A program made the translations under genes and the position numbers. Shown one piece after another: positions 996 through 63,839 of a stretch of DNA of 64,000 nucleotides (position 1 is its first letter; each line of letters opens with the position of its first letter). The notes under the pieces are model-generated. The model was not told where the DNA came from, did no database searches, and saw only the letters and a program-made list of their open reading frames with translations. This DNA is from Morchella semilibera (Eukaryota; Ascomycota; Pezizomycetes; Pezizales; Morchellaceae), in contig CM018605.1 in NCBI GenBank assembly GCA_009192285.1, positions 272,767 to 336,766 of the forward strand, given 5' to 3'.

Positions 996-3900
996 AAGAC
1001 CCACCTCACCCCGCTGTCTTGGCGGGTAATATCGCTCAGCGTTTCGAGAGCCAGCGTCATAGGGACATGTTTTTAATTTAATTGATGTGACCCTTCGGGG
1101 GATATTAACTGATGATTCCCTATCTTGTGAAGAAGCTGTATCAATAAAAATCTCTCCATAAGGACTGGAGTGTGTATTCCTCCTCCACGTGACCAACCAC
1201 ACCCATCAATAGATAAAAGTTTTGCAGCCAGTAAGGTGCCAAGAATACATGAGCTTCTGCCGTTCCTAGTGGTGCCAAGAAACACTTCTCCTCGGCTCAA
1301 ATGGGCTAATCGGTCCAAGACGGTGAAACGCTTAGAACTGAATTTCGCCGATCCAAGCTCTACCTTCCCATGGTCACAGATATCTTCATATCTCTGAGAT
1401 TAGACCTTGAAACAGGTGTCCATTGCAGTGCGCATCTACTGGCGAAATGTCTCTCATGCATTAGTGTGGCCTATGAAGGAAATGATTGACTGGAACAAAG
1501 TAGCAATGTGCGAAGTTTATGGAATTTCTAAGTATTCTAGACTACATAGTAATGCGGCGAACTACTTACCCGGACATTCTAGATCTCTGTAGCTAGCGAA
1601 AACATGAATCACATGACATTTATGCATGAGAGAGATTTCGCTAGTGTCTGGTGGCTCTGGGACATAAGACATTGGAGAACCCCCCCCCCCCCCCGCGCGC
1701 AGTCCTTAGAATACTATCAATGTGCCATAATGTTCGCAGGTTTATGCTTGAGAGAGATTCTCCAATGTCTCATACGTCCGGAGATACCGTCCTCATCTAC
1801 ACCCCCCCTCCCCTTCAGGAAATGACCTGATCGGTGACGTGGGACACCCAATCGCTCAACCCAGCGAAGCACCCAATCCAACCTAGCAATTCAAACACCC
1901 AATATAAAATTTTGACTTAACAACACCCAAATACACCAACCCAAAATACTTTCTCGGTGGAGTCTCGAATATATACTCCCTCTATTATTGCCTGGAATTT
2001 ATCTAGCTAGAGATGTCTGCATACTAAATGTTTGCTTTATAGGGAAGAAGTCACTTCAGGGTATGTAGTAAAAATGAGTGGTAAAGGTCACAGAGAAGAA
2101 TCGGTAGCAGACTCTTTTTTTTCCTAGTCACAAAATGTATCCCAACACTGGAAATGATCGCATGTGATATGTAACCCTCTGGGGGTTCATAAACTATTAA
2201 ATATGCACCACCTTCTGATACCCTGGGTATATATTTTAATTGAGGCCTTATCTGTGATTCACTTATGCCCGAAGGAGCGTGAGTACTGGCCTACCAGCGC
2301 ATCCGAATAGGTTAACCACCTATATAGACATTACCATATTTTTTAAGGCCGAATATATAAACCCTCACCGAAGCCATAGCAATTCAAGCACGTTGTGAGA
2401 AACACCAGAGCTAATATCAAATGATGGTTTGCTCGGACATATGTAAGCATGATGTAATGCTCATGTGGACATGCATAAGGGCAGTAGTTTGCTATATTCA
2501 GCTGGGTAACACCCAGTCGACATCATGGGACATCACCCCTTCACCATATATCACTCGCGCCGAAAACTAAGTTGGCGTCCGCATTGATCGATATATTGAT
2601 TGACAGCTGACATACGCACCGCCTAAACCGGTCGTATATGTGTCTATATTGCCTCTTCCACTGTGCCGGTAACCCCATTCCATTCATGCGACTTTGTATT
2701 TCGCTCGCGCAACGGCAAACCTAGGAATGAGAACCTGAATGTTAAGCCTCTCGGGCCGGGCTCACCGCTGGCGCACCATCATGGTACCCAGCTGGCGGCG
2801 ACGACCTGCACACACCCTCACGTAGCCCCTAAGCCTCGCCCCGTAGCGTCCAACAAGTTTCGAGTGATGTTCATGGATTTGACCTTCCGGCTGTTTCGTT
2901 TGATGGGGACCACTGGTTATATTCGTGGGCGATCTGGCTTGCCGCGCCTGCTCCGTTTGGTCCCTTAGCGTGCCTTGGCGGGAGGGTCGTATCCACCGAG
3001 TGATGCCATGTGATACTCTTCCTTCCAAATTGAACCTGAGGTTACGACTTATAACGAACAGCTAAACACACAGCTCACATACGAATAGATCCGATTGATC
3101 AACGCCTGGCCACTGACAGGTAGAACAACAACTGCCACGGTAGGTAGGCCCCTGGACAACGGCATCAGTATGATAGAATAGACCAATGTCGAGGGATCAA
3201 TACCAACTGGGTTTGGCACCAGGGAGGAAGCCACGGTTGGCACCGTGAGGAAAACGCCACGCGACTCTGTGGTATACCTGTTGACCCCCGGCGGCAGGTC
3301 GGCCCCACGCTCCGGCATTTGTGTAGCGGCTGGGGCGTTGTCGGTTATTAAGATTGATCGTGGGTTCTATGGCGGAGGGAATTGGTTATGTAATGGCCCA
3401 TATCCGTATTCCTACGTCCAATATACATGGAACTACTACTGTCAGAGAGTGCTGTTCCAGGGGGGGACAGGGAGTAACATGGGGGGGGGGGCGCTCACCG
3501 TAGAGCTGTTACAGGGACACATTCCTTTGGGGTCAAATGGGCATCTGGCAGCCCAAGCCAACAAGGACTCGGTGTAGCCTGGCGCAACTATGGTCATTTG
3601 CACATGTAGCAAATGGATCTTCAGGGACGAGGGTATATCAGGGCTTTCTCGGGTCAGGTGTTGAGAAGTACCAATGGTGCTGAAGTATCATACAAGGAAG
3701 GATAGGTCCAGCTAAGCTATGTTATAAGACCATTGAGAATTTGCAAGGGTATTGTGGTGATACTCTTTCACACAATGAATATGCCAATGTCATAGCTACA
3801 TGTAGTTGTGGAATTCATAGAAGCTTCATCAAGGTGGAAACACTTCGATTCGTTCATCACCACCTACAGCAAGGTTATCAAGGCGTAACACTCGGCGTTG

Positions 3901-4966
3901 ACCCAATCTATTTTTCTTTTCGATTATTGGACGGCGGCCCGTCTTAGCTAGTGCCTACATTTACCAGGTGCTCTACCTGTAGGTACTTGACGACGTTACA
4001 GGTTTGTGGGTCACGTGATTTGGCTATGATAATAGGTTGGACCCAATCGGTATTTCTTTTGGTGGTGTGCTCGATACTACATCACCAACAACACCAAAAT
4101 AGGGGATGGGCACGAGACTATCCAAAATTCTCGGTCGGACTATGTATCAATCCATAGAGTATATAATTTCAACCACAGCTGCTGAGGCCCTCCTCTTAAA
4201 CTGGATCCTGAAGCTTTTAATTTGTTCTGGTTTTGACAATAATATCCACGTATGCTACATGTATGTGCATGCGTATTATTACCAAGGTTCGAATTTCCAG
4301 TCTCGTCTCTCCCTGTCATGTCCAATGAAGCATAGAAGCACAGCCCCGGACCCGCTGCATCTTGAGTTCTAGCGAGGTGTGGGGGATGTTATCCGAATGG
4401 TAGCTCCGGAAGAAAAACATTAGCCGAGCTTATGGATCACGTTTAAATTTGTGGGGGAAATTATATATATGTAGATTCTCACCAGGTATTAATATTATAT
4501 GTAGTAAAAGGTTAATGGAATATAGAATTAAATGTATATTCTATCTATTAATGTGCGTATACATACGTTAAAATCGGGCAAGGACGCTAGGTCATATGTG
4601 GCGAGTGATATATCATGATTCACATATAGTTACACAGCAACCATGCATGGGTGCGGTACATACGATGTCAACACACCCCCGGTTGGCTTCCGGACATCAC
4701 CGGGTTAGTTTGGTACAGCTGAGTCTAGCTACATTTTGCGCGTCTACACCATACTTAGCCCTATGCGCATATCGATTGGACAGATGTTTCCTGGGGGAGT
4801 TATATGTAGGTATGTACTCTAAGTACACACATGTCTGAAGATCCTCATCTTTGCTGACTTCTACAGCTACCTACCAATCTACCCCCTCCCCCCTCATAAC
4901 AAACCCCCCCCCATATCATCACCATAAACCGGCCTATCGAGAGATTTCACTACCCGCAACAATACA
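996..4966. other. Intergenic, repeat debris, no supported gene
   Basis: No convincing coding sequence. Contents: a C15 tract at 1680-1694 inside a small inverted-repeat element (listed separately), spaced-motif copies at 2549, 2998 and 4603, a G11 tract near 3480, and a degenerate direct repeat around GACCCAATC at about 3901 and 4040. Open frames at 2663-2968 and 3245-3577 have no recognisable domain and no supporting splice or start context. Confidence 0.6.
1660..1780. repeat. Small inverted-repeat element (MITE-like)
   Basis: Ends at 1660-1679 and 1759-1780 are imperfect inverted copies built around AGACATTGGAGAA. A direct repeat TTTATGCWTGAGAGAGATT lies just outside the left arm and inside the right arm. 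No target duplication was resolved. The C15 run lies in the interior. Confidence 0.4.
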
Positions 4967-6034: not shown

Positions 6035-8339
6035 GGTTCGTATAGCCGGGATTTTTCTTTTTGATACTTTACAATTGTTGAAAACGGTCTCTGATTACAT
6101 GCATCTTCATTGGGATAGTCGGTCCCCGTTTAACGACAGGACGGCCCAACTTACATTTCCATTCCAAGACAGCGACATTGATTTCATGAGATTCAGTCTC
6201 CATGGAGCGGGCCAGACTGAGGTTTTCTTATGCGAAGGATTGGCAACCATCCAGTGCTCAGGTGTTCCATATCTATCAGTGGAATGTAAGCACTGATTTT
6301 TGGAAATATTTCCAACTCTTGGAGATTGTACAATTGCAACAGTCGTTACAACTATCCCTGGACTTTTCTTTCTTTCAGAGTTCTCAATTATTCTAGCATT
6401 ATAACATTTGGTCCCGGCAGATTCAGCTCATTTACTTTTTGTATTTGAATAATAGGGTTCACTCCATTATTACACTAGCAGTTGTGGCTAGGCGTGCCTA
6501 AAGGCCAATGATATACGTAGTTGATATCAGGGTGGAGTATGAGAGGTTTTGTCCTCGTGGCACGGCCCATGAAGCCAAGCGCCTAGTCCGCCACCCCCTG
6601 GGCCGAGCTTCCCCCCTGTAGCACGTAAGAGTGAAAGAGAATCGAAGTAGGACTCTCCATCTGATCATTGGGGCAGAACCAGCTAGCTTGCTATCATCTA
6701 AACCTTTGAGTTTGGGATGTTCTAATTAATGTTGCAGGGTTGCAGGAATTTTACCCCCCTTGCCCTAGGCTTTACACACCGTCTCACAATCATCATCACT
6801 TAGAGTTAAAGCCCTTGAGGCAACTAACAAGTATGTACTAGAGACATGTGTTCTCCTGGCATCCGAGCCAGTTCTCTCTTTGGGTAAAGATGGTTTGATG
6901 TACTCGTTGTCCTACCTCGTTGGCCATGTATCACACTTGTATGTCGAGGCTGCAGCGCCACATTACTATCTAAATATTAGGTAGCGGGGGGTAGAGCTGA
7001 GTGATGGGAATGGCATCACAATATATCACTCACACTGAACAGTGAAAAAGCGTAAGCACTAGGGGGGGTGGGGGGCTCAGAAAACGGCGCAATGAGCATT
7101 CTTATGCTAGACTCCCCTACTCCGAGTTGAGGATAAGAGTTTGCGGGCACTATATATGTATCAACGTTTATGAAGGACAGGGGGTATGTCTGGTATATAC
7201 CACTCTTTGTTTGACCCGGCTCGCTGAAGAGCACCGGAAGATCTAGAGCTAGACGCGGAGGGTTTGGCGATTGGATTAAATAAAATACCAAAGGTGGGGG
7301 AGGGAAGGCGTGGATTTGCTGTGGTATGCAGTAGGAACACAGTATTCTTCATAGAGTACAATGCCGGTTTAACTCGGTATTCGTCACTATATTACGTACG
7401 TAGTAATATGGTGGTGGTTTCACATGCTGTAATATCGGCACCAAGCATCCCCCTAGGTAATTCACATATCCTTCCTACCTGCAGATGAATTAAGTAGATG
7501 GTTCCAAAATTTACTCATTGATGATGTACCTCGTGTGGTTGTCGGGGGGATTGCCGGAAAGAGTGCTAATCTAGGCTTGTGGCTAACGGTGGCTCACCAC
7601 AGGGAGGAAAAAAAAACTGCGGGACTGTACTAGCAAAAAGGTAGCCAGATTGAAATCCGTTTGTCACCACGCCGGCAAGTAGTGGAATCTAGGAAAAGAC
7701 GAAGACATCGGATAGGTTTGGTTTTCTAGCTAGTATATATAATCTTTCTCAAGTTACATGTATCTAGACTCTACGAACTAGTATACACCTGGCTAGACTC
7801 CAACTTAGTATCATGAAGACTCGGGAGGTTGAAATAAGGTTTGTTTTGTCTTAGCCACAACCGGCTAGCGATGTTGACCCACGGACCCTTGAAGCTACAT
7901 GTAAGAAAGCTTCTTTGAACCTTGTGTCTGTGCACAATCGAATCGGTGATCAAATTGGATCAAGGACCATTATTTGCGTGGCTAAGGATGATCCTATCCT
8001 ATCCTGTCTTGGCAAAACTGGCCCCATCCGTGGCCCATGGTTGGTTCCCATGCATGTGAAGAAGGGATTGCGCAATTATTTATGATTTGAACAAAAAGTA
8101 TTATGTGTGCCGTCGGACATTCTCCTTAAAGGGTATAGAAGAAACTCAAATACGCTAAACAGCCCTAAAGGCGGTTGAAATAATCAGAATCTAGTACATA
8201 AAAAAAAGAGAGACACACATTTAAGATGTTTCTGCCTCGATAATTAACAGGTATGAACTTTGAAGAAAACAAATACTGGTAAAAGCTCTGTCATGTACTC
8301 TACTCTAGCTCTTTAGATATAAACGTTAAACTCGCACCC
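6035..8339. other. Intergenic, no supported gene
   Basis: Nothing coding is supported. One copy of the spaced motif lies on the minus strand at about 7016-7031, close to a related sequence at about 6998-7016. TACATGTA palindromes occur near 7757 and 7897. Confidence 0.6.
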
Positions 8340-16649: not shown

Positions 16650-16775
16650 CAAGGCACTGGCACAATTAATGATGTAAACAAAAAACAAAAAAACAAGGCA
16701 CTGGCACTTAATGAATGAACGGATCCCCACCTGTCAACACCTCATGTGGCTCGCTCACTTAATTCCAGAACCTTG
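16650..16775. mobile_element. MITE-like element interrupted by a retroposon tail
   Basis: The termini read ACAAGG-CACTGG at the left and CCAGAACCTTGTA at the right, imperfect inverted copies. Interior sequence (ATCC, CACCTGTCAACACC) matches the 77-bp element at 20657-20733 in inverse orientation, so the two are one family. The left terminus is split by the poly(A)-tailed insertion at 16664-16692, whose 13-15-bp target duplication is a copy of the terminus itself. Confidence 0.6.
16664..16692 (+). mobile_element. Tail-only non-LTR retroposon insertion
   Basis: A 29-bp insert, AATTAATGATGTAAAC followed by an A-rich tail, is flanked by identical 13-bp copies of AAGGCACTGGCAC at 16651-16663 and 16695-16707 (15 bp if the preceding AC is counted). 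Target duplication plus A tail is the product of target-primed reverse transcription with extreme 5' truncation. The same tail is at 59408, 61766 and 61823. Confidence 0.75.
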
Positions 16776-22429: not shown

Positions 22430-23486
22430 GAAGGGAAGAAAGAAAGAGAGGGAATGGGTGTAGAGCTAGTACAAAATAGTGGGAGGGGCAATTTGTTGCT
22501 ATACTATATATATTATTGACTGTAGCAGCGGAGTAATACAGAATGGAACATAGTAACAATAATCAATTCGCCTTGGCAAGGGAGCAGTAATGACATAATA
22601 CAAAAGCGGTCGATCTAGACCTTTGCCACAATCATTAGGCAAACGACTCTAAAGTCCCTTCCCGGCAACCCGACTAAAAGACCGATCCGCCCTTCGCGCA
22701 AAGGGCCTATTACACGAGTCAGGATATACTTGTATTTTCCCAGGCTCATAGTAACAATACTTCTAACACTTACCCGGCACCAGACGACATCGAGTGATAG
22801 ATTGTGAAGGACTGACGAGTGATGGTTCATGAAGACATGGCCGCCGATTATTATTTATTTATACCCCGTACATGCATGTATGGACTGGTTGATTGTTGCT
22901 GTTATTGCTAAACCGCTTACTCAACTGGTTGGTTGCTAATTCATTAGATAATTGCGGCGATCTGATTGTTTGATTGATCATTGATCGATTGACGTGACTA
23001 TGTAACTCAGGAAGACATCGCGAGCAGCCCCGTTGCGCTGACGAGACGCAATGGAATCAAGGTACCCTACCCGGTAAATGTGTCAAAGCAATATCAATTT
23101 CTACAGAAAATTTGGCCAAAGGGGGGGCTATATACGAATTTCACCACCGGTGACCGGAAACTTTCATAAGTGCATGCTAGTGCTGACATTCTTTATTTAC
23201 TAACGTAGTCGTACACCGCCGCATAAAGACTGAAACCCGAACTCATACTGCCGGCACAAAGACTAGAATCCAGTGCTTGTACCGGCGGTACATTTGCCGC
23301 TCCATACATGTCCACCCGGCGCAGAGACCTCATAGTAACGTACTCCACCCTACTGTACCCGGACCGTGTATCACCGTCTGCCCGCAAGCATACCAAACAT
23401 TGGGCCTGGAACCAGTGTCAAAAGATACAGAGGTGATATTTAGCTCATTGGATTCAATGAGGTGAGTATGTATACCTCCATGTCAA

Positions 23487-23550: not shown

Positions 23551-25005
23551 TGAATAGGAACTATATCTAAGACAGCGCCTGGGGCGCCCACGGGTACATG
23601 ATGGCAAACGGGTACACGGTGAAATACGTCATGATCACATAGCGGCTAATTAATTGGCACCGAAACTGGTTTCTCCAACGTACGGTGCCGCGCACATAAA
23701 TTGCGTTGCGAACAACCCCTCAACCAGACAAGACATCAAGAATCTATCGTAGGCATAGGTATGGTCAACATTTAGCTTCGTAGATTTTTGACACCTCGTC
23801 TTGTTGAAAAGTTATTAGCAATGCCATTTACCTATTTCTTGCATGCCAAGTGGAACAGTAGCGCATCATGCCCATTTATACCTCTACACCACAGACCAGC
23901 CAAGATCCAGCCTCCAGCCATAACATGGCCAGGACCTAAACCCCCCACCGGTCCATAGCAGCCAGAGTGCATGGCCAACTGAGATACCGGCATGTCACCT
24001 CTAAGACGCGCGCCAGCCTCTATCTCGAGGTGAGTTAAAGTAACAGAAACCACATGTCACGCCACGTCCAGTACTTACCTTTCACCATCTACACCTGTAG
24101 CTAGCCGTCGCTATAAGTGCGTACAGCCACAAGTACCGGAGCCCCGAAGGCCGTACGTAGCTACTCAGTTACTACCCCCCCCCCCTAGTGCCGTCTACGA
24201 GCGGTGATGTGGTAGTCAACCAAAGCGCCTAGGGGACAGGGCCGGTCACACCGCACACTGGGTCTTGCACCCAGTGTGGTTCGTCGAGTGATAGCTTGTG
24301 ACGGCCGCCGCCTATAACCACCAACCAGCAACCAACCAAACAAACGAACAGACGAGCCACACCGCCCAGAACGCCGCGAGCACCCCCCACCCGAGTAAGT
24401 GGCAGACCAACATGCAGCAAGCCGATCGTACCAATGCACGAACACCCAAGCGGGACATCCTTGAACCCCAACCTACACCACCGCAAAGCACCATCCGCGA
24501 CCAAAACACCGTTACGGAACTACATAGGCAGCCATACCCGACTACTACCATACTCCACAGCCGGGGGGGGCGCGTGGCACGGCGAAAGTATCTACAGTTT
24601 ATACTAGGGGCGAGTGATATGCTATGATGGCACGGCACGGGCGGTTGGTGTGTATTGAGATTATGCAGGTCCGCTGCCCCATAACCCCCTTCCCAAAATG
24701 CTAACGGGTGGCTACATAGTCTATGGCACTTGTTGGTCATGATCGAGGGGCGGTGTCAGTTTGTGGGGTAAGAAGCTTCGCTATATGAAACCTTGCTGTA
24801 TGGAACAGCACACAGGGAAGGACTGCCCAAAACCCTACCTGCTATAATAAATCCGGAGGGGGGTCATATAAGAAACAAGACTGTCACCGCCTTGGCGTTT
24901 AGGTATCGCCGTACTTTATCACGGCAGACAATAGTCACAGGAACCAACACCGGCACCGAACACACGCACAAACAAGTCAATTACACCCCCAACCTACAAA
25001 CACGC

Positions 25006-27099: not shown

Positions 27100-29739
27100 C
27101 GTTTTGTTTATTATAGATATACAGAAGATATAGAAGGTGGTAAACAGATCCAAAGACCCCAAACAGCAGAATATGGAATAGGGGGGGATATATAGAGAAT
27201 ATAATCAATATCTGTTCCCGGATTAGGGAAACGGGCATGACATCATAAGCTGGTCTCTTATCCCCTGCCGCAATGCCCGGTATCTCCGCAGACCCTGTTT
27301 TGCGCCAAGCCTGCCCGGGTCAGGGGCCGGGTCATGGGCCGTCACTCGCTGTGCGTGTCAGATTAATTGGCTCTGTCTATTTATACTTCATGCATAGATT
27401 AATTGGCCCAAGAGGCCATAATCGGGTGTAGATACTCTTGTTTCCACCCTGGCTACAGTACAGGACCTTCAGCTCAAGGGTGGCTGGCAAGAGACCCGCT
27501 CCTCCATTACGCACCATCTTCGTCTCCAACAACACCCAACCCCTACGGATTTGGGGACATCTACACCCTGCAAGCACCACAGCCCCTAGCGCTTAGAGTA
27601 AGGATCCCGACCCCAAGCGGGGTACTCGCGCTGCACCTACAAAGAAGGGGCGTACCTCAAAAGTCGATACGGCGGTATTCTGCCCACCCATGGCGGACGC
27701 GCACAGCAACCTACAACCCCGCTGCGACGGGCTGCCGAGCACCATTCAGAGAGACCTCCGTCCGAACTTGACCGGCCCCGGAGCCTACCTAATCCAGCTG
27801 CTAATCCAGCGGCTGGTATCAAAGAAGCTGAGTGCCCTATGTGGGGGCCGAACCCTGCGGCGGCAAGACAGCCCAGTGCTGGGAGGAAGAAGCGTCCTTC
27901 TGCCGGGTCTATGTCGCTAGTTGGAACTGTTTACGGCCGGTGGTAGGTCGTTTTCAGCGCGTAGTTAGATCCGCGCGGACGCGCACTGTTTGCAGCGGGG
28001 GGCGGGTTGTGGAAAGTATGTTCTGGCTGTAGTAATTGTGGTTATGGCTCCTTTGCCAGGCCCCCTACTGCTACTAGATCCCCTCCTGTGTTGTATTTTA
28101 ACAAGGTGCGAGTGATGATGTGTGACCGCTGGAAGAAGTAAGGAGTACTCTCCGTGTGTTGCTATATTCCAGGCAGCCATTCACACCTGGGGCGGGGCGG
28201 TGTCGTGTGTACACGCGCAATGCGAGGGGTATAAAACGACGGGGACGGGGGTAGATGAAAGACCAGGGGACGAGGAAATATAGCCAGTGTGGCGGGGTGA
28301 AGGGTTTATAGTATAACTCCACAAGTAGAAGACATCGTGGAAAAGGAAGAGGTAGGCGGGTAGACTCAGGTAGAAGACACGATCGAAGGGCGAGCGAAAA
28401 TAGCATCAGCGGGACAAACCCCATATCTTTCTCTCTTAGACAGACCCACATACATACACCCGCAAAACGGGGGGAGAGGCGCGGGTTACATGTAGAACAA
28501 CGACCGCCAGCCTCGGGGTGCCTAGACACTTCCGCCAGGGGGAACAGACCCCAGCCAACACGTCCCCAGGGAATGATGGATAAGCGCACAACCCCACCAT
28601 GGAGAGAACGCCGGCTACCGTGACGCTTAAACAACCCCTCTGTCATTGACGTCCCATGTTCTGGCCGTGCGGGGGCGCCCCAGACGATAGTTGGCCACAG
28701 CTAAACCCAGAGGCCTTAGCTGGCCGCCGCTTGTGTACGTTACAGATGACTCCTCCGATGGTTTCTAGCCCTCCCCGTCAAGCTCCTATCCTATCGCAGC
28801 CAACGCCCGCCCGCGGCGACATATTGGGACTCGGCGGAACGGGGCTGTCTGCTACGGTGCGCGGATGGACGCATGCTGGCTAGTGGGTGTGGGAGGTCCG
28901 TATCGATTCTACATGGGGGGGGGGGCATATATCCTCACTTCGGTTGACTAACACCGTAGGGGTGGTTCCGGACCGTTGACGGCGCTCGTGGTAGAGATGA
29001 GCTCCAGGGGTCCTTGGGAGGGACGTACCGTGGATGGATATAGATGTAGAAGGCAAGATATATAGACTAGAGTAAACAGATCCACAGACCCCCCCAAAAA
29101 CCCAATTAACCGCAGGAACCCACCATACCGTAGAACAAGTGGTCCACAATATATATAGCACACGCACGTAATCAGCAAGAGATCGTAGTAACTAAGTACA
29201 TAGATAACCCACCATAACCACCCCCCCCCCCAGTCCCCAGTCCCCAGTCCCCAACCGGCGGCACCCCCACCCCCGCCCGATACCCCATCGAAGCCCACCG
29301 CCAAGCACCGACAGCATGGGGTGGTCGGATCACAGTGCGTCACTCGCGTTGCGTTGGCTTGGTAGGAAGCCGACACCACGCCGGGCCACCCCAATCAGAC
29401 CTGCCGGGCCGTGCACACGGTTGATCTACAGCGCGCCATCCACTCTTCTCTGCAACCCAACAGCAACAGCAGAAAAGGGCACTGGCAGCTGGACGCACCA
29501 ACTACATACATGTACTTACTTGCAGTCAGTCAATGGTGGGTGCTTTATATATATATACATACTTGCTGGATAGCTATAGGGAGAGTTATGTAGAGGTGAA
29601 TGGACGCCAGACACGTCACGGGGACGTCGACTGGAGAGGAGGAGACCAGATACAGTAGGAGGGACATGTAGTGCTAGTGGGTGAGAGGGTATTTGGTATA
29701 ACAGTATATACACGTATATAATATGTCCACTCCGTCCCC

Positions 29740-33835: not shown

Positions 33836-35192
33836 CTTGTGTCAATTGCCCTGAGGGAAGTAACGCCGAAATCCTCAATCTTCACCTCCCCCCCCCCCCA
33901 AGCTTATCACGGCCGCCACCCTCCTCCCCCTCCCCCTCCCCCTCCCCCCCAACAACCCCCCCTCCCCTGCTATTCTACCCTCTATTGGTATCCAACCTAC
34001 TACGAATCTTGTTGAACCTGCACAGCATGGGTTATACCTACCCAAAGAGGCCTCTGTTGCAGTTTCTATAAACGAAAAAGTTCCTCAAATGTGGTCGTAC
34101 AGGATCAGAGTCGCCAAGCCTCCTGTTTCATGGGTCAGGGGGGTACCAAGGTCATAATATATCACTCGTGCTGATTGCTGGGATGTGAGTGATAGTCTGT
34201 GATATGGCAGGCTAATTGTAAGGGTGCGGGGAACATCTAGCCTGATCCAGACCCAGCCTACCTAGTGGTCTAACCCATCCGTAATAGAATGGCGATGAAT
34301 TGAGCCAGGTGGTGGGAATATTAATATTTTTAGAGGTCTCTAGTTCAAACCAGCAACACCGGTATCACACATCTTATATATTGTATAAGACAGATAAAAG
34401 CAGATCAAATCATATATGGCACTTGCCCCCAACAGGCCTCTACTCGGTATTTAGCTCGGGTTTGATTCGAGGGTTCTCTAAACGTGTTTGCAGTGGTTTT
34501 GTGGTCTATCATTCGTAGACGAAGCGGGTGCCGCAGGAACTCCCCATCTTAAGTGATTTTTTCTCCGCGTATAGTTTTCGAAAGATTCGGTTGAATTTGT
34601 TTGATAAATTGTGTAATTGACCGGTAAGATACCGACTGTTAATACCAGACACGCTTTTAGCCACAGCCAAAGAGGGTCAGAACCCCTTTGGTGGATATCT
34701 GGATACGCTGGAGCACCCGGTATCTTCCCCGCCTCTATACCACCTAAGGTATATCATTTTCCACGTAACGGAGGATATTGGTCGACGCCTCATGACATGT
34801 CCAACATATTTACACCTTTGCTTTATAATTAACGGTCTTCTCGGGAGAGCGGGCTTCTAGTACCATAGTCGAAGGCCTCAGAAAACATAAACTATTAATA
34901 AAGGTGTATGTATTTAGGAGACTGTAGAAGAAATTAGAGGTCAATCAGTATGGGTCTCCCATAATATAGTGATAGTGATACAGTTAAATGGCGTCCCACC
35001 GGATTCTCATTCCCCCTTTGCGCTGATCTTTCTTCCGTTCAACTTTCGTAAGTCTCCATTTGGATGCGTTCTAGTTTATTTTTAAACAACGGCCCCCCAA
35101 CTCCTTGTGACCTTCGAAGCTCGGGTCATGTTGTAGCTATCCAAGCAGGTATTATATCTTATACCGCATGATAGAAATTCCCAGTTTATTGA

Positions 35193-35480: not shown

Positions 35481-38400
35481 TGAGGTTATAATTTACTACG
35501 TTTACTGAACAATCTAAACGGGCCCCAACAGACCTCCTTGTCTTGCTTCGACGCCCCATCGAGTCATAAGCCGAACAACTAGCCTAGCTCTTTTGTCTAT
35601 TTCTCCGGGGCATAGCCTGTCTCTTTTTGTGTGGGATAAATGGACCCGGGCTGTGTTTAAGAGCATTTACCGAGTGATAGCACATGACGGGAATTCCCTA
35701 CCAAGCATGCCGAGTCAGTAATGGATAGAAGCATTGTTTTCGATCGGTATATATATAGTTTGTGTATGGTTTACACTGGTAATTTGGGGATATTGACGGG
35801 GCGGTTCCTGAACCACATCTTCCTGAAACCCAAGAGCCTCTCTCCCTTCGATTGAGCAGTAGGTGGGCCTGGTAACTCTTCGGGTTATTTTTAACCTCTG
35901 GGTTAATAAATTCCTATCATATAATCCGGTCTTACCCCCGTACCAAAGGTCGCAGCATATCCTGTTAGATTGCATGAATGTATGATGTAGAAGTAAATAA
36001 TCTCCCGTTACTTTACTTCATCTATACCTACAAAAGAAACTAGCATCGAAGCTTCACCACGGGCCATTAGAGGGGGGTTCTGCAGCAGGACCTACAAACA
36101 GCTAACAGACCAAAAGACGCCGGTGTAGGGTGTTTCCCTGGTGAAGAATGTAGTAAACAAGATTTGTAAAATCCTTATGAGATACGTCTTTCCTCAAAGA
36201 ACATATTGCTTTGTTTTATACACCCCCATCCTGGTGGAAATAAATGCGAGTATGGTGTTTATATCAACCCCCTACAAATCTGGTGTGTATTAAAAGTCAG
36301 GGGTCAAAATGTTCAATCTGATAATAGTGACCGTGTTGATAGTGATGGTGTGGGTGTTGACGGTTAATATGATGGCCATGCATATGGTGGGTGGTAGCTC
36401 TTGATCATTGTGATGCCAATCAAGCATTGAATGTGTAACACCCCCAGCGATATTCCAAACACACTGTAAAGGGCCTGTAATAAATACCCTATAATTCGAG
36501 CGCTGAATAATGTTTGATGGGGGATAACCCTGTGAGTACTACGTAGACAGATTGTATTATAAGCAAGAGGGCCCAGGGTTATTTTACTTGCCAGCTCTAT
36601 CACGCTGGGAGAGGCGTCAGCGGATCATATGCGTTACTTAATACGTTTCCCAGGGAAACACAATGTCCCCCCCCCCCAGAGAAAAGACAACTGATACCTT
36701 CCCCAACCTGTTGGGCCTTGTGTGTACAAACGCTCCGAGGAATCATTCGACCCACCTCCCAATGTAGAGGGGTCCTCCTGGCAACTTTTCCCCACTGTTT
36801 GAGAGAGTGAAGTAAGAGGGGGAATTGAAAGGTCGATTCGAAATTAGAAAGGAGGGAGGGGGGGGGAGGGAGGGACTCCGTTCTTTCGGGTGTAGAGTAG
36901 CTCACTGGGACGGTTATTTGAATACATTTAGATACCCATGTGGAGTACGTGTAGTGAAGGGCATTTTAATGGCTTAAATCAACGTAGAAGCGGATGTTGG
37001 GGTGTGACCGGGGTACATGATGTTGAAGTAGTGGAGCCTAGCGCCTAAGAGGTTGCCTCGGGGCCGTTCGGCTTTGGCCATCACTGGCTTTTCTCGGCCT
37101 GACCTCGAGAATCAAATTCTTGGAGATTTTAGACACCTATCTCGTGGCCTCGGGTATCCTAGTCTCGACTCCTCTAGAGGGCTACCTTAGATGACTACGT
37201 CAATTAGCTACATAAGTAAATAACTTTGTCACTAATTGACATACACTTACTAAACGACTCCACTAAGTAACTCTCGTTCATGATTCTCACCCCCTCCCCT
37301 AATTATATAAATGACTCTCGCTCCACTGGGTGGCTCTCGTTCCACTAAATGACACTTGAATTTAATACCATATTCTATATAAAAAAAACTGTTGCCAAGA
37401 ACTAAATATTTAGATTCAAAGTCTTGGCCAAGAATGTATATAAGGACACCTCTTCGCCCTGTCCCTTTATTTTCTATGTCTAAGTCCCTTTAACACCACA
37501 ATCATCAGTACATATATCAAGGTAAGTTATGTCTATGATGTTTATTAATTTTCGCCCCATTCTGAATTCGCTTATATACTGGCCTGAAGAACTTAAGCAC
37601 TCTAAAAATACAGAGTTGCGTAAATAATTATAATACACGTCTATAGCTACTTTGCTTGGAAAGAGCGCTGGATGGCAATCAAAATGCGCCACAGAAACAA
37701 TTCGGTGGTGGCTCAAATTTTAAACGGGTCCGCGGAAATACCTAGATAGATATCGGACTCCCGGTTTTACCCAGAATGCGAATTAAGAACTAACAACGCA
37801 CGGACATTCACAGACTATCACTCGAAATCCCCCACGCTAGCCAGCTACGTGGCATGCTAGAGAAGAATGGAACGCAGTAACCAATAACAATCGGCTTTTT
37901 TTCGTACGAGTCAATGCCACTCTTCTCCCTCGATCCCGGCCGACACCGTGCTGCTTAAGTAATCCCCACCAACGCCATGAGGTCGAAATAACCTTTTTTT
38001 TTTTCCTGCAGATCTCCCCACCGCTCAGACTCCGAGACTTCCTCCCAAAAGAAAGTGCAGTATTGTCTTGCCCCTGGCTGATTGTCTTGCGAGTCACCCT
38101 TATCTTATCCTTATCGAGAGCACCTACCATCGTAGTCTTTAGAGTTTCGTAACCCTGCCAGGTGCCGTCAGAGCAGGTTTCAGGATGCTTAACCTCGCGA
38201 AAATTGCACCCGACTGACAATTGTCAGACTACATGGGTTAGGGTTGTGTGGCACTTTAGAAATCCGATAACCAGGCCCTGCTTCTTCTTCTTTTTTTTCA
38301 TATATATTTTTTTGCCTTGCGCTGGGTATTTCTCTGGCCTCAAGTACTTCCTATACGCGCGGGTCAATCCCAGCAGACTATGCATGCGTGTGACCTTGCG

Positions 38401-45480: not shown

Positions 45481-46860
45481 TTTGGTTTTATATAATCAAT
45501 CAAGTATAGGGGTGTTTCTTTTTTCCTGCTCGTGTTTCCCTCCATTCTTTTCTTTCCTTTTGAGGTGCTGTTTAGGCATATCGCCTGCATGTACTGGCGT
45601 AATTCTTGTGTCAAGGGGTTTGTGTCTTTGGTTTATTTTCGCATTATTTCGCCGGAAAATACCCTCTTTCGTATCAATTTCTTAAAGTTGCGCACATCAT
45701 AACCGAAACTGCTTTCCCTTAGAACAGTTAGCATATTCATTTATTTCTGCCTTCCCCCTCTTGAAGTGTAAATCTTGACCACTCCTGCCGCTATCCGCTT
45801 CGTTATAGTATTGATAGTTGTCTCTTTTTTTTGTTCTCGTTTTTTTCTTTTTTTGCATTATGGCGTTCGTTGGGATATTGGTGGCAAGATATAAGATGAA
45901 GACCATAGCCAGCACATATGCTTGGCTTATGTACTTGAGTTGGCAAAAAATGATGCTGCGGGGGAGAACTAAAGGGATGGAATTGTTAAATAAGGTGCCT
46001 ATGAATTTTTATTCGTGAAGAAATACATGGCATTAGCCGACAATTGCGGGGGCTTCAGGTCAGGGCGGATCTTACAGCTCCGGCCGGGCATCATCGGGAT
46101 CCGAGCTCCGGGACCACAGGATCGATAAGGTTTATGTGTATGTATGTATTTATGTAGATTAAACTGTACGCAGTGCAATATTGAGTGGTGTCGTCTTTCG
46201 TGCGTTATATATAAAGGCATGTGCTGGATTGTCCTGTTTGACGCAAAAGTTATCAAAAGACGGTTACCAGCAGCGGGTCCGAGGATAGTTTTACAATAAA
46301 CGCCGATTTTCCTGTAGATTCTGGTGATGAGTTTAGGTTGCTATTATTGTGGTTTCTGTGGGTATAGAATACGATCACATGTCCCTTGGGTTGGTCGGGG
46401 TATGTTCGTATCGGGTTCCTTATATGCCGATTCGTCTGATCGAAGAGGTGCAGGTGCATGTATGTGGTGTGCCTAATATACGTATTTAGGTATGGTTAGG
46501 GCGATGACAGGTGATAAAGATTCGCAGTATACCCTAAAGAATTATCCCACAAGTCCTCACTATCATACACGTATGATTGGCAGTACCCATGATGGTAACG
46601 ACAGTGTGATACCAAGTTGAAGTCTGGTGGGGAGGGGGGGGGGGGCGACGAGTGACGTTGCATGACCTTGTTTGAGGTACTGTAAAGAAGAGAGAAGTAG
46701 GATTGAGGATTGAGCGAGGGGAGGGGAGGGGACATTGATAAAGTGGGTGTTCCCCCCACTATGGTGGGGCATGGAGATTTTCCTATGGGGTATAAGTAGA
46801 TATGTATTTAATTCTGCATCCCGTACCTTATCATCATCCATCTTCAGTTAAAAGCCCGGC

Positions 46861-46924: not shown

Positions 46925-47853
46925 TAGATAGTACTTACCTTACCAAACAGACACCACTTTTGAGTAGTTGGTAGATCTTCTGTTCGCTGCTCTTCATCTA
47001 TGGCTAGATTGTTAGAGATCTCGTATGTCTGGATGAAATGGGCCGGGGTAGATAGCGTGATGTGGGTGGTACGTGCTTTCTCTGAGAGGGAAATGTAGCT
47101 AAGTTTGAAGAGTTTAGCGAGAAGTTAGTGCAGCAGACAAGTACGGATAGAGTGATCACCTATGATGCGCTCTCATGAGTGTACTAAGCCAACTGCTTCG
47201 CATTTACTTCAACTCATTTCTGCCATCCTTCTTACACCCCCCCCCCCCCCAACATCCATCTCATCCCATATCTCAGTAATCTTCTAAGCTACTGGATTAA
47301 CCTTGACCGGCGATCATTTCATTTATATTACACCTAGTAATTCACAACGGGGATACCTGCATCCAGAAGGCCCCGTCGATTCGCAGTTTTTTTTTTGTCT
47401 ACATTTCCATGTAGTAGTAGTGGCGAATACGAGTTATCTAGGCAGGTAGCTCGTGGGGTATACCGGAAACATCCAATCGCCCGAGGATAGCATAAAACTC
47501 ACTCATATACATACTAAGTACGTATATACTTGCCACATTGGGAGATGGGATTAACTAGCAGTGGGGCGTCCGATCCCATGTTCATCCACGTACATGCAGC
47601 GCCTTTTAATTTCAGTCCCCTCATATCAGATGTTGTTAGAGTGAAAAAATATCCAACATGGAAGCTAAGCGCGCAAAGCATGTTGGTGATGGTTGGTGAC
47701 GAGGTATTAAAAACGTGTGGTGGATCGGTCAGTAAAGTGAGTCGGTAGGTTGGTTATTATGTAAGGAAAGACCGGCAAACGTCTACTAACAATCAGTCAC
47801 TAGCCAAGCCATGCCATAATTGCTTTCTTCCCCCAATGTGCCAGATATTGTTA

Positions 47854-49846: not shown

Positions 49847-52800
49847 TTGATACAAAAAAGGATGGAGTGATGTAGTTTGCTAATAAGATTTCGGCGTACG
49901 TAGTGCTCGTAGAACAAGATTGATTTCTTGTCGGTCCCTACATAAAATAAAATATATATTTTGCTCCGAGTTTGTGTGTGTTTACCGAGAGGATTAGAGG
50001 TTTTCTTACATATCGCCGTAAAATCCAGTGACGGACTTGTCTCGAGCCTAGATACATATATGACCCATGTGAGATACAAGCCTAACTAATTTTATGAACA
50101 CGTTAATCTACTAAAGACTCGTGAAGACAAGTGGTTAAGATAGGATGTTTGTCTAGTTTTTTGAGGAGAAAGTACCTCTATAATAAATTGACGATGAGAC
50201 TCGTGGTAGAGTCCACAGGTCTGGGCAGAGAGATAGTAGAGGTGATTCTAGTACTTCTTAACAAGAATCTTTTAATTGGCTATTGTTGGTTTACACTTGC
50301 TCTATCTTTCTGATTCCTGAAGGACTCATTCAATCAAGTTGTATCATAACCTATGTCCATTTCAAAGGATCCACTGATCGATCCGAGCATAAAAGCCGCT
50401 CTCAGGGCCCCAAGCATATACTCTAGTCTATGTATTCTTTGCACCTCGAAAAATCTTTCGGAACCTCGGAAGAGCCCTCCCATGGTCAGAAGCCCGAAAT
50501 ATCCAGATGTTACCTGTCTAACTTGCGTCACGTCACGGTTAAAAGGACTAGATTAAGTTTTCAAGTGCATATCGAGTGAGGGGTCATGAAGAGCCCAAAT
50601 AGTGCTTACATGTATGCATACAAGCGAGAAAGAAGGGGGGGGGGGTAAAGCACGTACCTATTGCCGCTCTAAATAATCCGTGCTCAAACGATAAATATAT
50701 GCTCTTGCTTAGAAACCCCCATCGAGACACTGTGTAATTTAAAACATCCCTTGCCCTGGTGTTTCCTTGTACCGAGCTGTGTGAAGGGGAAAATTAAAGA
50801 CATTCACGGGAGGAGAAAAAATTGTGCAAGCACCTAACTAAGGTGAATTGAATGAGACGGCTAGCGGTCGGCCAGCTAGTCACGGACATTGTCCGTGGTT
50901 CTGTCTCGCGAGACGAGTCGGTAAATACATGATGATGCGAGACGACCTCGTATCGCATATGATGCTTAGCTAGGGAAGCAGTATCTAAAGTATTTATGTA
51001 GAGGTTCGACCTAAAAGTATCCAGCTGCCTTACCTAGAAGTATCAGCGCGGGCTTGTCTGCGGGTGCTATATTAAATGGTTGCAAAGGAGCTGAATAAAT
51101 AAATAAAATATGCACATACCTGTTCATTTATATTCATGCACGGCAGAAGCTTATGTCGTCTCTACAAACCAAAAACAACAGCCGTTACATGATGATCGAT
51201 ACCATACATGTGTAGACCACAGGTGCAAAGAACCGGAAACGGCACATTGACGTGACCAGAACGAGATTTCGTATCCTCCGAGATCTACTCCATGAGTTGC
51301 AGGGAAGAGAATATCACTTCCTATTAAAACAATCTGCGTTGGCCTATGTTCGAATAATCGGCAATGGCACACGCGGGATCTCGGAACCAGGTTAGTGGTG
51401 GTCCACTCATGATGGGATGAGCTAGAGTTCGCGTGCGGCACATACCGCTGAGCCTCAAAGGTCAACTCGCCAAGGTATGTGGACCCCCTTTTTGACACCA
51501 CATTTCTTCGGTAGCTATGTACCAGATCGCCACCGTTGGAATTTGATGCAGCGAGTTGTGGTTTTGTTGCATTTTACTCTACCTTTTAGGTGGGTGCCCT
51601 TGCACGGTTGAGCGCGAGCGCCAACACAGCAAAGGATCTATGCATGTGTTTGTTGTGTGGGTTATGCGGACTGATGTTCATAGCATGTCACTCGCATACA
51701 TACATATATATGCGCAGTAATTGTTCTGTTAATGCCCGTAGTACTACAGGGGGAGTAGGATACAAAGGGAGCTCTGTCGGCGAGGCGTTCTTGGTCTAGT
51801 TATTTGGCAGCTACGGGCATGCATGCTCCCTGGCCGAAATTGCCCGCAAACCATGCAAGAGAACTTTCCCAGTAGACTTCTCTGCCAATTCAAGTCATAA
51901 CTGGTTAGATCTTTAGGAGGAGCCAGGCCCACGGTACTCTAATTATGTGCCCACTCTATGGAGTAGGGTTTGAATTCATCTATGGGAACATGGAAGGACT
52001 GACGGCTTTAGCGGTACGTCCTACAATGGGTAGGCCCATAGTTTCTAAGATTGGTTATCACTATTAGTACCTAATACACGGAGGGAAGGTATAGCGCAAA
52101 GGATATAAATGTTTACCACTGCATGTATTTCCACGCTGATGAAGTTACGGGGTGGCCATGGATGTCCCCACACAAGGCCTGCAGATTGTGGGCGGAGCCG
52201 TTATTATTGATCTTGAAACGCGCCTCCAAAATTTCCAAAGAGCGGCCCTGATCTCGATGTCGTACAGCTAGGTCGGGACCATCAATAACAATAGACAGTT
52301 AAGGTTTTGGTCAAGCAACTGTTCGGGGGTTTCGTGGGTTCGAATCCCTAGAACAGATCAGCTTTACTCTGGGGCTCGGGATGGAGATGGGAGTGGGCCG
52401 CGGCACGACCGAGGAGGCCAAGGCCAAGATACATAAAGTAGGCCAAAGTTCGTTGCTTCCAAATGTGTAAGTCTATGCGGATCAAATCTAATGAGTCCTG
52501 TAATCTTCACTGTGGACAGTACGGCGGAGCGCACTCTGCCAACGATTCGTGGCAGAGAACTTGTGATATTTTGACCTTTCGACCTTAGAATATTCTCTAC
52601 CCATCAGAGTATTGTCATCGCTCCTGGACCCCTCCAGAGCTTAAGATGCTGACTTTGAAGGGTCCTGGGCCCTGGAACAAGGGTCCAAGATCTGGTAGGC
52701 TGTTGTCTTGGACAGCCAAGCTGTATTTTAGGTAGAGTACATAAGGTACCTTGCAGGAAGGGGTCAACATGGGTGGTGGTCAACAACACTGCAGGCGCCA

Positions 52801-55760: not shown

Positions 55761-57042
55761 ATAGTGTAACGTACTTTTCTTATTATCATTTCCCTGGATA
55801 TACTTTTGGAATGAATTTCTGGAAGTACCATCTAGATCTTGTCAATATCTAAGGAAAAATAAGTTTGTAAGAAGAACATTATGTTAATTTCACGGTCTTC
55901 ATGTTCTCCTCATCGTGGACCCAGGGGGGGAGATAAGTGTATTTAAGTTCGCGTCTGGGTTCAGTTTGTGGTTTGGTTGGTTGGGAATTCCTTTTTTTCG
56001 GAGCGGTTTTTTTTCTTTCCTAGAGTTTACATAATATCTTAAACTTCTCTTCTTGCAACCACTTAAGACAGTGCATCCACTTTTATGCTTGTGTGCGTAT
56101 GTGTGTTTATAGAGCGATGATGTGTTCGACGAAAGGATACCGTGTCATGGGTTGAGAAGGAATCCTTGGTGTAATATATATAATTTTCAGTAAAAAGACC
56201 TCTTGAGAGGAATATGAACCCACCCATCTGAATACTCTGTAAATTATTGCCTGACCTCAACAGTTTTCATGTCATCTGTTAGGTTTTCGATAGGACTAAT
56301 GCGGAAGTAGGTTTCCCATGACCCGACAGTCTGATGACTTAAGAGAATCTTTTGTACCGGAATCTGAACACGGTAATAGCAGGTCACGGTTCCCTTGAAT
56401 GGAGCTGTAGGTACAAGGTCTTTATCGGGGTCCAGGGTTACTCCATAACACCACTTCACTTGGTGTGCCCATTACCAGCTTAAGTTACATACTTCTCGTA
56501 TCACAAGATTACGTGGCCAATCCTAGTTGTATGCCCGGGGTCATGTCCTTACCTTGACCAAGCTGGTTAGATTACTACTCCTAGGTTGCGGCTAGGTACA
56601 TTGGGGCAAAGAGACATGCCCCAGCGGCTAGGGGAATTAAATCAAGTATTCTTCTTGCGGCCTTTGACCTAGGATTCGGGGGTCCGGCAGTGACTGAGTG
56701 GATAGAAAGTGTGGTCACATCTTTGCGTGGGCTACAGAGCAATCCGTATATCTACATAAGTACGCCCATGCCGCATAAATGTAGGATGAGTTAAGTACCC
56801 AACTACATCCTTCTGGTTGATACTAATCATAGAAGAAAGTATATATGGATTGACTATGTTGTAAGCTAGATATCGCCTTTTGGCTACATGTATGTATGTC
56901 AGGAGAATACAGTCATGGACGCTAACCTTAGTCACGAAATATCACTCACCATATGAGAGAAGTGGAGTGTTACCCGGAGGATGATCTCGCAGAGGGAAGC
57001 GCAACGCGCTCTGCTCTTATACTTTCTGTGGCTTGATGCACT

Positions 57043-59433: not shown

Positions 59434-60265
59434 AACCTTGATAGGAAAAATTAAACGCCAAGACTACCGAGTGATTATCTATGACGATAATTCTTAATCC
59501 GCCTACTGGTGCTATTGTGTCGCTGGCATCTAGGGGTACGGTCGGATATTGGGTGCTCTGGCGATATACAATACGTGCATGGTAACTGGCATCATGTCAA
59601 TAGCTGGGTGACGGCCTACGAATCCTATATCTCTCATAATATCGCTGCGCCAACGAGGTGAACCATTAACGACACAATAGTAAACCATAAATCCGCGGAA
59701 ATGCTTGGACTACATAACTAGCTTAGAGGCTATTCCCTTCATCCCGTGATGAGCTCCTTGTTTCTCGACAAGGATCCAGCTAGACAGATGTATCCAGGCC
59801 ATTTTATTCGCAAAACCATCACGCGTAATCCTAAATTTCATGGTAACATGCCATGAAAGCTCTCAAAGCTCAAAATCTCGACATAAATCGAATCATTTAG
59901 CAAAAAACATATTTTGGCAGATATTCGAAGAAGAGTTTGTTGCAATATTCTTTCATATTTAACGTATATATACATGAAGAGTTCATTTAGTGGAAAGCCC
60001 CAGCACCAACGTCAAGGTAGAACTCATCGCTGGGGGGAAAGCAACGCACGCATGCACGCAAAGCAAACAGCAAAAAATGAAATCCTAGATCCATGGACCA
60101 CCCCCGGAACGGGGTCAACACCGAGCTCAACGGCTCGGACTCGGCATAACAATCTATCGGTGGGATTAACATCACCACCAGACCCGGACTCGGTCACTCG
60201 GGATCGGCCTCTCGGAGTCAGCATCGGCCCGATCTTATTATCGGGACTCGGATGATCGGTATGGT

Positions 60266-60873: not shown

Positions 60874-61765
60874 CCTTCAGGACCCTACTAGTAACACGAT
60901 GCCATTACAGCATAGAGAACACCTTCTCGGTGGTAGCTCCGGTCGATATGCCCTAGTGGCCGTTGCTATTCGTAAAAAGACAGATCTCTTCTGAATTGCG
61001 TCACTAAAATCCAATTTTTTTTTCTATTACGGCATACTTTGTATATAAACGACTTTAGATCTACAAACCCCTCGGCCCTCCACGTTGTCTCTTGCACAAA
61101 AAAAAGAATGGATATACAAAATCTCCCCCCCCTATTCAGGACATAAACGAGTGAAACCGTATGAGCAGTAGAGAATAATCTTGTTGCCCAAAATCGTAAC
61201 ATCGCTTTCTTCGATCCTCGGTCGCTGTAAAAGGTCGAGGACTGTCAGGGTACATGTATGTATGCGCTACCCTGGATGACATCTCCTAGTGCGAACCTTA
61301 ACCATCCCCTCGGGTCGCCGCAGTAGGACTAGTTTCCCTATCGATACCTCGATCAAGGTTAGCCACATAAATACATGTATATTCTACTGTTTCCCACCTT
61401 TATCTGTCCGCGCCGAATTACAGATGCATAGAACTACATGTAGTAGTTACTCTATCCGGCGATGGTATACATTTTCCACTGGTTACTGTGGGCAGTAAAC
61501 ATTACCTGGCTACGTGTACATGTACTTGCCACTTACAATTAGTGCCCACGCGATCCTGTATTTGTACCTGTTCGTAAATCGTTCCCTAGCTTATACCGCG
61601 CATAAGCACCTCACCTATCTCTTCATTTACCTAACGAATGAACTAGTTAGAGGGAGGGAAAGAGTCACTAAAGGAAGCTGGCATCATCATCTACTCATAC
61701 CAACCAATCGCCCAACTCAAGCGAATTACATATACGGATACATACCAACGAAGATGGAGATTTAA

Positions 61766-61816: not shown

Positions 61817-61846
61817 GGATCCAATTAATGATGTAAACAAAAAAAA
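61817..61846 (+). mobile_element. Tail-only retroposon insertion with weaker duplication
   Basis: AATTAATGATGTAAAC plus poly(A), identical in its core to the 16664 copy. The flanking ACTATGAT repeats (61809-61816 and 61847-61854) are only 8 bp, so the duplication is short or eroded. Confidence 0.55.
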
Positions 61847-63839
61847 ACTATGATCGAAAAAGCAACTATGAGGTGAGTGATATCTCGTGATTATAATGTG
61901 CCGCGGGCCTTCTTTGTGCGGTTAGGGCTGGAGGGACCACCATCCCACCCCCCCCCCCTTCTCTCCCCTTTTTTGACGATATGTGTCCTTTGCTAACTGT
62001 CCTGATAGAATCACGAGGTTACGTATGCGGTTTGTATAGGCTCGCCCTAGACCTCGCTGGGCGTACACACCGGAGTATCGCGAGGCGGCACACCACAAAG
62101 AGACTTACATGTACAGTAGGTTAGTACTATAGTATCCCCACCTCGTAATAAGTACATGTATATATGATCATTTCTAAAACCACCTATCCAATCAGTACCC
62201 TCCTAAACCCTTTTGTGTAGTGCGCGCAATAAAAAGCTCCGGTGTATTGTAATACAGCTCGGCACCTGCGACGTGCTAATTCCACCCCGTTTCGCTAACG
62301 ACTTTCAATACCTTAGCCTTGACCTGGCTCTCACAATTCCTTGGACGGACCAACTTCCGCGCGTACAAGTTATCCCGAATCTCAAAATGTTAACACATGG
62401 TCCAGTCTATGGGTTTCTAATTGGAATTTCGAGTAGTGAAGACTGTCTTAACTTGGATTCGGGACTACGCCACTGTATTAAGCGATATGTGGCTTGATGT
62501 GATAATTAGTACTTTGTTCGCCATTAGTTAGGATAGGGTTGAGCTACAAGATACGGTAACAGGATGTGAATCTGCAGGCCTCTCTCTATTCAGTCAACTG
62601 GAATTCGGCAAAATACCGATTAATAGAACAGCCGAGACCTACAATCTCGAGATATCTGCCACAGGGTCGGAGGCGCCTATAGTTCATGCGCGATGATATA
62701 CGTGGTTATATGGATGTCTCGAAGACAAAACCCAGGACACTAGTGTTAATCGGGGGAAAGAAACGCACATAAACCTACGCGCCTCGGGTACAGTATTTTC
62801 CGTGGCTAGTCGGAAGGATCGATGGCTGCTTGCAAGTTGAGAACTACACCCTTAGACTTGACGTTGTTTGGCCGGCTGTTGTGTTTAGTCTCGCCGTGGA
62901 GCGATACGGATAAACACTGGTCTGGCTTCGGCTGGCAACGGATATATATTGATTGTAATGATAAGACAAGGCAAAAATTAGCTAAAGGTACATAGTCGTG
63001 ATGCGAACACCTGTGCATAAGTTCATGTATGTACATGTAATGATACTAAACGCTAAGTTTCATTTCGGCTACAGTCTTGCCTCAAATATATTACTAAGCA
63101 ATTACCAGTGCTAGTGTGCCCCACAACGTGGACTGACAACTCGTCGCAGCAAAATTAGCTATGATACAGACTGTGGAGACACTAAAATAGGCATAAGGTA
63201 GGCCACAGAATTAAGGCGATCCCACAGCCAAGAGGTAGTGAGGGTTTAGATTTACTACCGAGTGAAGGTTTGTCAGCTCCTAGCCGCGAAAACACGGATC
63301 TGTCGCTATACATGTACGTGTAAGTGAGCCAACGCCAAGGTTTGATGTATAGCAAGTACGGTAAAAAAAAAAATTGTATTCAGAGATGTGGTTGTGCAAT
63401 GCATACAGGTACATTCTTAGCAAATTGCCAACAACGAGCACATGTATGCCTATAGACACATGTAGGTATGACAATTTTAGGCAGGGGCAGCGCCAATGTT
63501 AGATCTCGCTTACATATATTGTTGACAGCAGAAACACAAACTTTTACTTCTAGCGTTTGCAATTAATAACAGTAGAGTATTGTTGTCATAGCCTACAGGC
63601 TACATACATCAACAGTAGATTATAGGAGGAAGATACTGCACAAAACTAATGATTTAGCAATAACAACAGAAAGAGGCTATCGAGTGATAGAATATGGGCG
63701 AGTGACATTTTATGATGGGACCTGTCTAGCAAGCGAGATGCCGGTGCATGGTGCAACAAGAATAATAGGGTTAGTGTCACGAAGGCTCTGCGGATCCGAT
63801 GTTCTCTGGCCTGTTTCCAGATCGTTTGATTCTTTGGTA

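Follow-up and report, generated by a model that had tools for sequence, protein, structure and literature searches.

The locus and the sequences analysed

The stretch analysed here, called the window throughout, comprises 64,000 nucleotides of the morel Morchella semilibera (GenBank assembly GCA_009192285.1, contig CM018605.1, positions 272,767 to 336,766 of the forward strand). The element in question is a short bipartite motif, YGAGTGANNNNNYRTGAYGG, with the core GAGTGA-N5-YRTGA, dispersed between the predicted genes. Long open reading frames are few in the window, and no tRNA was found in it.

Motif counts covered all 23 contigs of the 56.76-Mb assembly, with the reversed core pattern in the same assembly as control, and include some loci twice on near-duplicate contigs (C9/C10, C12/C13 and C21/C22). 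These pairs gave identical matches at near-identical coordinates and represent duplicate or allelic assembly stretches; their matched letters were identical where compared by eye. C1 and C17 have one stretch in common at different coordinates, likewise duplicate or allelic. A site profile was fitted on a 264-kb sample (the window plus 200 kb of contig 1), and the threshold for a site was set at 11 bits. Genes are our own predictions from a six-frame coding hidden Markov model (HMM), as distinct from an annotation. The first version of the HMM scored a run of N as coding and was rerun with this run left out, giving a coding fraction of 24% for the 264-kb sample.

The motif and its copies in the window

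With up to two mismatches allowed, YGAGTGANNNNNYRTGAYGG matched the window 26 times, against 1.0 expected from shuffled sequence. The consensus fitted on the 264-kb sample is approximately YGAGTGAT-NNNN-YRTGAY, about 18 bp long, and the information drops to noise beyond its edges (78 CGAGTGA occurrences). Above 11 bits the profile found 82 sites in the sample, against 7 for the reversed profile. The window holds 28, of which the atypical one at 26372 looks like a chance match; the others are given below with their profile scores, together with their relation to a preliminary description of the window, made from its letters alone, which had listed copies at 23 places.

2521..2539, minus strand, 17.2 bits: weak copy, abutting the next (18-bp tandem)
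2539..2557, minus strand, 22.2 bits: copy with G at the Y position
2997..3015, plus strand, 19.8 bits: copy
4602..4620, plus strand, 25.9 bits: copy, sense, about 320 bp upstream of a predicted gene
7014..7032, minus strand, 23.0 bits: copy
22791..22809, plus strand, 23.6 bits: copy, first of a tandem pair (25 bp)
22816..22834, plus strand, 23.2 bits: copy, second of the tandem pair (25 bp)
24285..24303, plus strand, 25.3 bits: copy, exact to the preliminary pattern
24611..24629, plus strand, 26.8 bits: copy, exact
27330..27348, minus strand, 21.7 bits: copy, sense, about 510 bp upstream of a predicted gene
28109..28127, plus strand, 21.5 bits: copy directly 3' of a predicted gene
29328..29346, minus strand, 20.5 bits: copy, sense, about 630 bp upstream of a predicted gene
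29924..29942, minus strand, 23.7 bits: copy, exact, previously unlisted
34150..34168, minus strand, 25.4 bits: copy, left arm of a divergent pair
34186..34204, plus strand, 21.4 bits: copy, right arm of the divergent pair
35671..35689, plus strand, 23.8 bits: copy, exact
37806..37824, minus strand, 24.2 bits: copy
46649..46667, plus strand, 20.9 bits: copy
47149..47167, plus strand, 18.9 bits: copy with A before GAGTGA, previously unlisted
50573..50591, plus strand, 19.8 bits: copy
51676..51694, minus strand, 22.3 bits: copy
56930..56948, minus strand, 22.2 bits: copy
59468..59486, plus strand, 22.1 bits: copy
61148..61166, plus strand, 16.3 bits: weaker copy, previously unlisted
61874..61892, plus strand, 23.0 bits: copy
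63681..63699, plus strand, 16.1 bits: weak copy with another base for the final A of the core, directly adjoining the next (18-bp tandem)
63699..63717, plus strand, 24.9 bits: copy, exact

Each of the 23 places holds a copy within a few bases. Most fit the core, those at 2549 and 63682 each being off by one base, and the close pairs at 22792/22817, 34160/34187 and 63682/63700 were seen again as a tandem, a divergent pair and an 18-bp tandem. The list was thus real and incomplete, a perfect copy at 29923-29942 (minus strand) and weaker ones at 47149 and 61148 having been overlooked. Two details were corrected: the trailing GG taken as part of the motif is absent from the fitted consensus, and the base before GAGTGA, described as always C or T, is C at 66, T at 9, A at 4 and G at 3 of the 82 profile sites. 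Overall, the original observation is real and was understated. A stretch of nearly 16 kb (7033-22790), which includes an AT-richer part (16-18 kb), is without any copy above 11 bits.

Number and spacing of copies in the genome

The core GAGTGA-N5-YRTGA occurs 8,113 times in the 56.76 Mb, about 66 times as often as the reversed control (123), so that its frequency is not that of the background; the control corresponds to about 0.14 per 64 kb, close to the chance estimate of 0.1 given at the outset. When the gap was shortened to N4 or lengthened to N6, 176 and 158 matches were counted, against 147 and 150 for the respective controls. Since both counts sit at background, the spacing is absolute.

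Allowing one mismatch brought the core to 15,377 matches in total and the control to 3,358; by subtraction, 7,264 matches carry exactly one mismatch, against 3,235 controls, an excess of about 4,000, or roughly one for every two perfect copies. No clear excess of such matches was seen in the 264-kb sample, which has 28 of them and 26 for the reversed pattern; in 13 of the 28 the sole departure is at the tolerated Y ahead of RTGA. Unconstrained decay would be expected to leave more damaged and shifted relics than were seen. The motif was also searched for outside the genome: viral contigs gave no tandem match, and the 81 matching stretches in prokaryote contigs, many with pattern lengths of 37 or 44 bases, are taken, by pattern length alone, to be unrelated short-period repeats.

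Position relative to predicted genes and repeats

By the first HMM version, predicted coding sequence of the 264-kb sample contains none of the 58 exact-core copies; with any base allowed at Y, the rerun placed 1 of 71 copies there. Among the profile sites, 3 of 82 were in predicted coding sequence against 19.5 expected, and all three are atypical. The earlier statement that no copy lies in a gene therefore stands for predicted coding sequence, with a few window sites overlapping mechanical open reading frames. Part of this avoidance is trivial, because the TGA words of the motif close two of the three sense frames; the antisense frames are open to it, and by arithmetic about nine coding copies would still be expected by chance. 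The density in non-coding DNA of the sample is 0.48 per kb, and it is higher in intergenic regions shorter than 2 kb (13 sites in 14.8 kb).

At distances of up to 750 bp upstream of predicted genes, 12 copies were in sense and 1 in antisense orientation by the rerun (14:1 by the first version). This sense orientation is suggestive only. Counted per site with the first version, same-strand coding sequence for an upstream range of 1.6-3 kb was found at about 17-20 of 77 sites, against 1-6 for the opposite strand. In the 3' flanks of predicted genes, counted by gene, there was no orientation bias.

The 500-bp flanks of 74 sites were compared with the 264 kb, and 12 of the 74 had any non-self match; among the flank matches listed (at most three per site), those spanning the motif belong to one atypical site. 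The flanks thus lack longer common homology, as had been described, and the hits are not confined to one place in a longer repeat, within the 264 kb compared. In the contig 1 stretch, repeats cover 33% of the last 55 kb (N included) and 0.7% of the first 145 kb, and the repeat-rich 55 kb contain 2 atypical profile sites, against about 19 expected from the general density (arithmetic).

Close pairs and flanking sequence

Pairs of copies separated by 0-30 bp were counted over the whole genome, giving 134 tandem, 59 convergent and 43 divergent pairs, and none for the reversed pattern. Random placement over the whole genome would give about 18, 9 and 9, respectively (arithmetic), and somewhat more if placement were confined to non-coding DNA. 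Some tandem arrays are local duplications (e.g. three 23-bp steps on contig 1), so that part of the tandem excess is not independent. Gap lengths were analysed for 97 of the 134 tandem pairs (100 listed, less three rows of duplicate contigs or of a repeated stretch), 49 of the 59 convergent pairs (50 listed, less one duplicate) and 36 of the 43 divergent ones (all listed, less six duplicates and a row that overlapped another). The tandem gaps are uneven (chi-square p = 6e-9, with low expected counts): 13 of 97 pairs have a gap of 2 and 9 a gap of 3, 82 have gaps of at most 18, and gaps of 0, 5, 6, 19, 28 and 29 do not occur. The most frequent convergent gap is 9 (10 of 49 pairs), although a few of these pairs have letters in common and may be of common origin. 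Divergent gaps are also unevenly distributed (p = 0.005), but no one length forms a significant peak. A shortage of short gaps together with favoured spacings would be expected of proteins bound side by side.

Flanks and composition were examined in a set of 106 sites, which is biased in that 16 of its loci were picked by a narrower pattern. The core is constant in this set by construction, since sites were picked for it; it is the genome-wide counts that attest its constancy. The GC content of the spacer follows that of the flanks (rho 0.32, p = 0.0008), as it would in a spacer that drifts along with the surrounding DNA. Among the positions with two letters, 13 and 17 also track flank GC (p = 0.016 and 0.037, uncorrected), unlike 0, 7 and 12. 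Coupling of the T/C choices between the half-sites, which had seemed strong by eye, was rejected (p = 0.49 in the 83 of 106 sites with T or C at both). Weak, uncorrected enrichment near the sites was seen for GCCAAG and other words, none of which is conspicuous as a partner once the 4,096 words tested are allowed for. Over 400 bp on each side of about 104 sites, a small G excess upstream and C excess downstream were observed (Wilcoxon p = 0.0025), the sites being not fully independent, as neighbours share flanks.

Other features of the window and the sample

The most over-represented non-coding 8-mer in the window and the contig 1 sample, once simple words were removed, is the palindrome TACATGTA, which occurs at about 20 times its mononucleotide expectation, with 86 of 87 sites non-coding, and is nearly lacking in the repeat-rich last 55 kb of the contig 1 stretch. 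No association of the motif with it was found; the palindrome may itself be another dispersed site. A dispersed repeat of about 260 bp (window positions approximately 35190-35480) has 24 further genome matches, some of them fragments, at 70-84% identity, and is free of the motif.

A 703-residue deubiquitinase frame in the window is 87% identical to a Morchella snyderi protein and then matches unnamed metagenome proteins (about 70%), followed by proteins of named Pezizales such as Choiromyces, Geopyxis and Trichophaea. Several of the frames at 9283-10056 (minus), 12247-12855 (minus), 14315-15097 (plus) and 32110-32694 (minus) end in a similar cysteine-bearing, FACPYY-like stretch. These frames had no Pfam match and probably represent a local protein family with further exons.

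Interpretation and alternatives

The copies are very probably sites for a protein, and are treated here as putative binding sites. Protein binding is favoured by a core of about 18 bp with no common flank, an absolute spacing and few damaged copies, and further by the lack of exact-core copies in predicted coding DNA of the sample, by their scarcity in a repeat-rich stretch and by the uneven spacing of close pairs. A word with 8,000 intact copies and rigid spacing would be an exceptionally clean footprint of one protein. In the mechanism that we propose, one abundant, sequence-specific nuclear DNA-binding protein would occupy each copy, and selection would keep the copies. Two DNA-reading modules, or a head-to-tail dimer, would read GAGTGAY and YRTGAY, two direct half-sites offset by exactly one helical turn, so that like modules would share one face of the helix. 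Such a placement had already been suggested from the recurrence of RTGAY with a 10-bp period, which fits the fitted consensus and from which two like modules on one face would follow, physical binding being what we infer from it. The sites would be spread through gene-bearing intergenic DNA, single or in close pairs, where the factor would hold chromatin open or divide intergenic chromatin. A general regulatory or architectural role is suggested by the numbers and by the spread independent of genes, and this specific role is roughly an even bet. For the full explanation, namely selected putative sites of one abundant factor with a regulatory or architectural role, a probability of about 0.55 is given; binding, selection and the role in chromatin are all inferred from the patterns described above.

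Several results weigh against this explanation. By the first HMM version, the 2 kb next to predicted genes have 32 sites on 5' sides (0.43 per kb) and 44 on 3' sides (0.58 per kb), and a simple promoter element is not supported by these densities. The 12:1 sense bias was noticed after looking and rests on 10 versus 1 distinct genes; it falls to 10:1 sites under two other gene-merging settings, and the next upstream bin (750-1000 bp) has 0 sense and 4 antisense copies. Among 22 further loci centred on sites (L002 and L038, overlapping or duplicate, being left out), 13 are without predicted coding sequence within 1.5 kb, and the sole site closer than 750 bp to a 5' end (L008, about 740 bp) is antisense; two more sites face a 5' end, an antisense one about 790 bp and a sense one about 760 bp away. 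No marked composition step was found around the sites to 400 bp. A search for the Abf1 family (PF04684) gave no match in the genome, and none in 14 control genomes either.

The preliminary description had left open whether the motif is a binding site or the end of a transposon, and the evidence favours the former and speaks against the latter. Copies that are ends or relics of transposons would account for a very high, dispersed copy number, for the few local tandem arrays that repeat spacer letters and for the one atypical profile match that sits in a repeat. This origin is nevertheless highly improbable and was rejected on the absence of a common flank, the motif being spanned at one atypical site only among the flank matches listed for 74 sites, on the near absence of copies from the repeat-rich stretch, and on a variable spacer with almost no N4 or N6 relics. 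The copies might instead belong to an ordinary, widespread transcription factor, with sense sites about 250-750 bp upstream of genes and with distal copies acting as enhancers or marking unannotated genes. The 12:1 sense bias, close pairs in all orientations that look like homotypic clusters and the higher density in short intergenic regions are as this would predict; some 8,000 exact copies, no denser upstream than downstream, and the 13 of 22 loci remote from predicted coding sequence are not, and we regard it as unlikely.

If each copy were the promoter word of a small non-coding RNA, much as the Ruby motif is for nematode piRNA genes, thousands of short copies scattered through the genome with nothing else conserved around them would also be expected. 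Here, however, no base is conserved to +69, a clear composition step is lacking and the window has no Rfam match at gathering score, by which a known structured RNA was also rejected, and such a word is very doubtful. Control of replication, by origin-complex sites or by polar, Sap1-like fork barriers, is improbable. The copies lie outside predicted coding sequence in the sample, and the small G/C skew switches at the site (p = 0.0025), but one in about 7 kb would be a high density for origins, and the skew is small and not of the usual origin sign. The direct half-sites one helical turn apart do recall those proposed for Sap1 at Ter1 (PMC6053445).

Relation to known systems and significance

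For Sap1 of Schizosaccharomyces pombe at Ter1, a head-to-tail dimer on direct repeats is proposed, with recognition helices about 35 angstroms apart (PMC6053445). The Ter1 site and the morel motif (RTGAY at 10 bp) are alike in having direct half-sites one helical turn apart. The letters of the Sap1 half-site differ from those of the morel motif. In the CENP-B box and the sites of paired helix-turn-helix transposases, about 17 bp long, bipartite and read by two modules, the letters also differ, and unlike at transposase sites no element ends were found at the morel copies. The half-site RTCAY of Abf1 is the complement of RTGAY, while the other Abf1 half-site differs. The Abf1 site of Saccharomyces cerevisiae resembles the morel motif in being bipartite with a nonspecific spacer, as described in PMC4618392. 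According to PMC2897762, an Abf1 orthologue is lacking in D. hansenii, C. albicans and Y. lipolytica, and the dominant general regulatory factor of ascomycete yeasts has switched from Cbf1 to Reb1. The sites of such factors (Reb1, Cbf1 and Rap1) are, like the morel motif, short words in many places; they have been studied in promoter nucleosome-free regions, whereas the morel motif is not denser 5' than 3' of genes. As would be looked for in the site of a general regulatory factor, the morel word is rigid, information-rich and hugely over-represented in non-coding DNA.

As a kind of object, the motif is a binding-site family; its number, rigidity and spread are unusual. Among the open-licence papers listed in literature searches, none deals with such a motif in morels, judging by titles and the opening parts of abstracts. 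A bolder reading, which we hold to be doubtful, is that morels, and perhaps all Pezizomycetes, have an insulator or architectural system, based on a single protein with an 18-bp direct-repeat site and some 8,000-12,000 such sites, that punctuates euchromatic intergenic DNA and is CTCF-like in function; to our knowledge, no CTCF equivalent is recognised in ascomycetes. With its ready-made spacing mutants, the motif is a direct bait for a major chromatin or regulatory factor, and we know of no such factor in this fungal group. General regulatory factors turn over between yeast lineages (PMC2897762), and the motif would add a lineage far from the yeasts. If distal copies do act in chromatin architecture, they would raise the question of whether fungi have insulator proteins.

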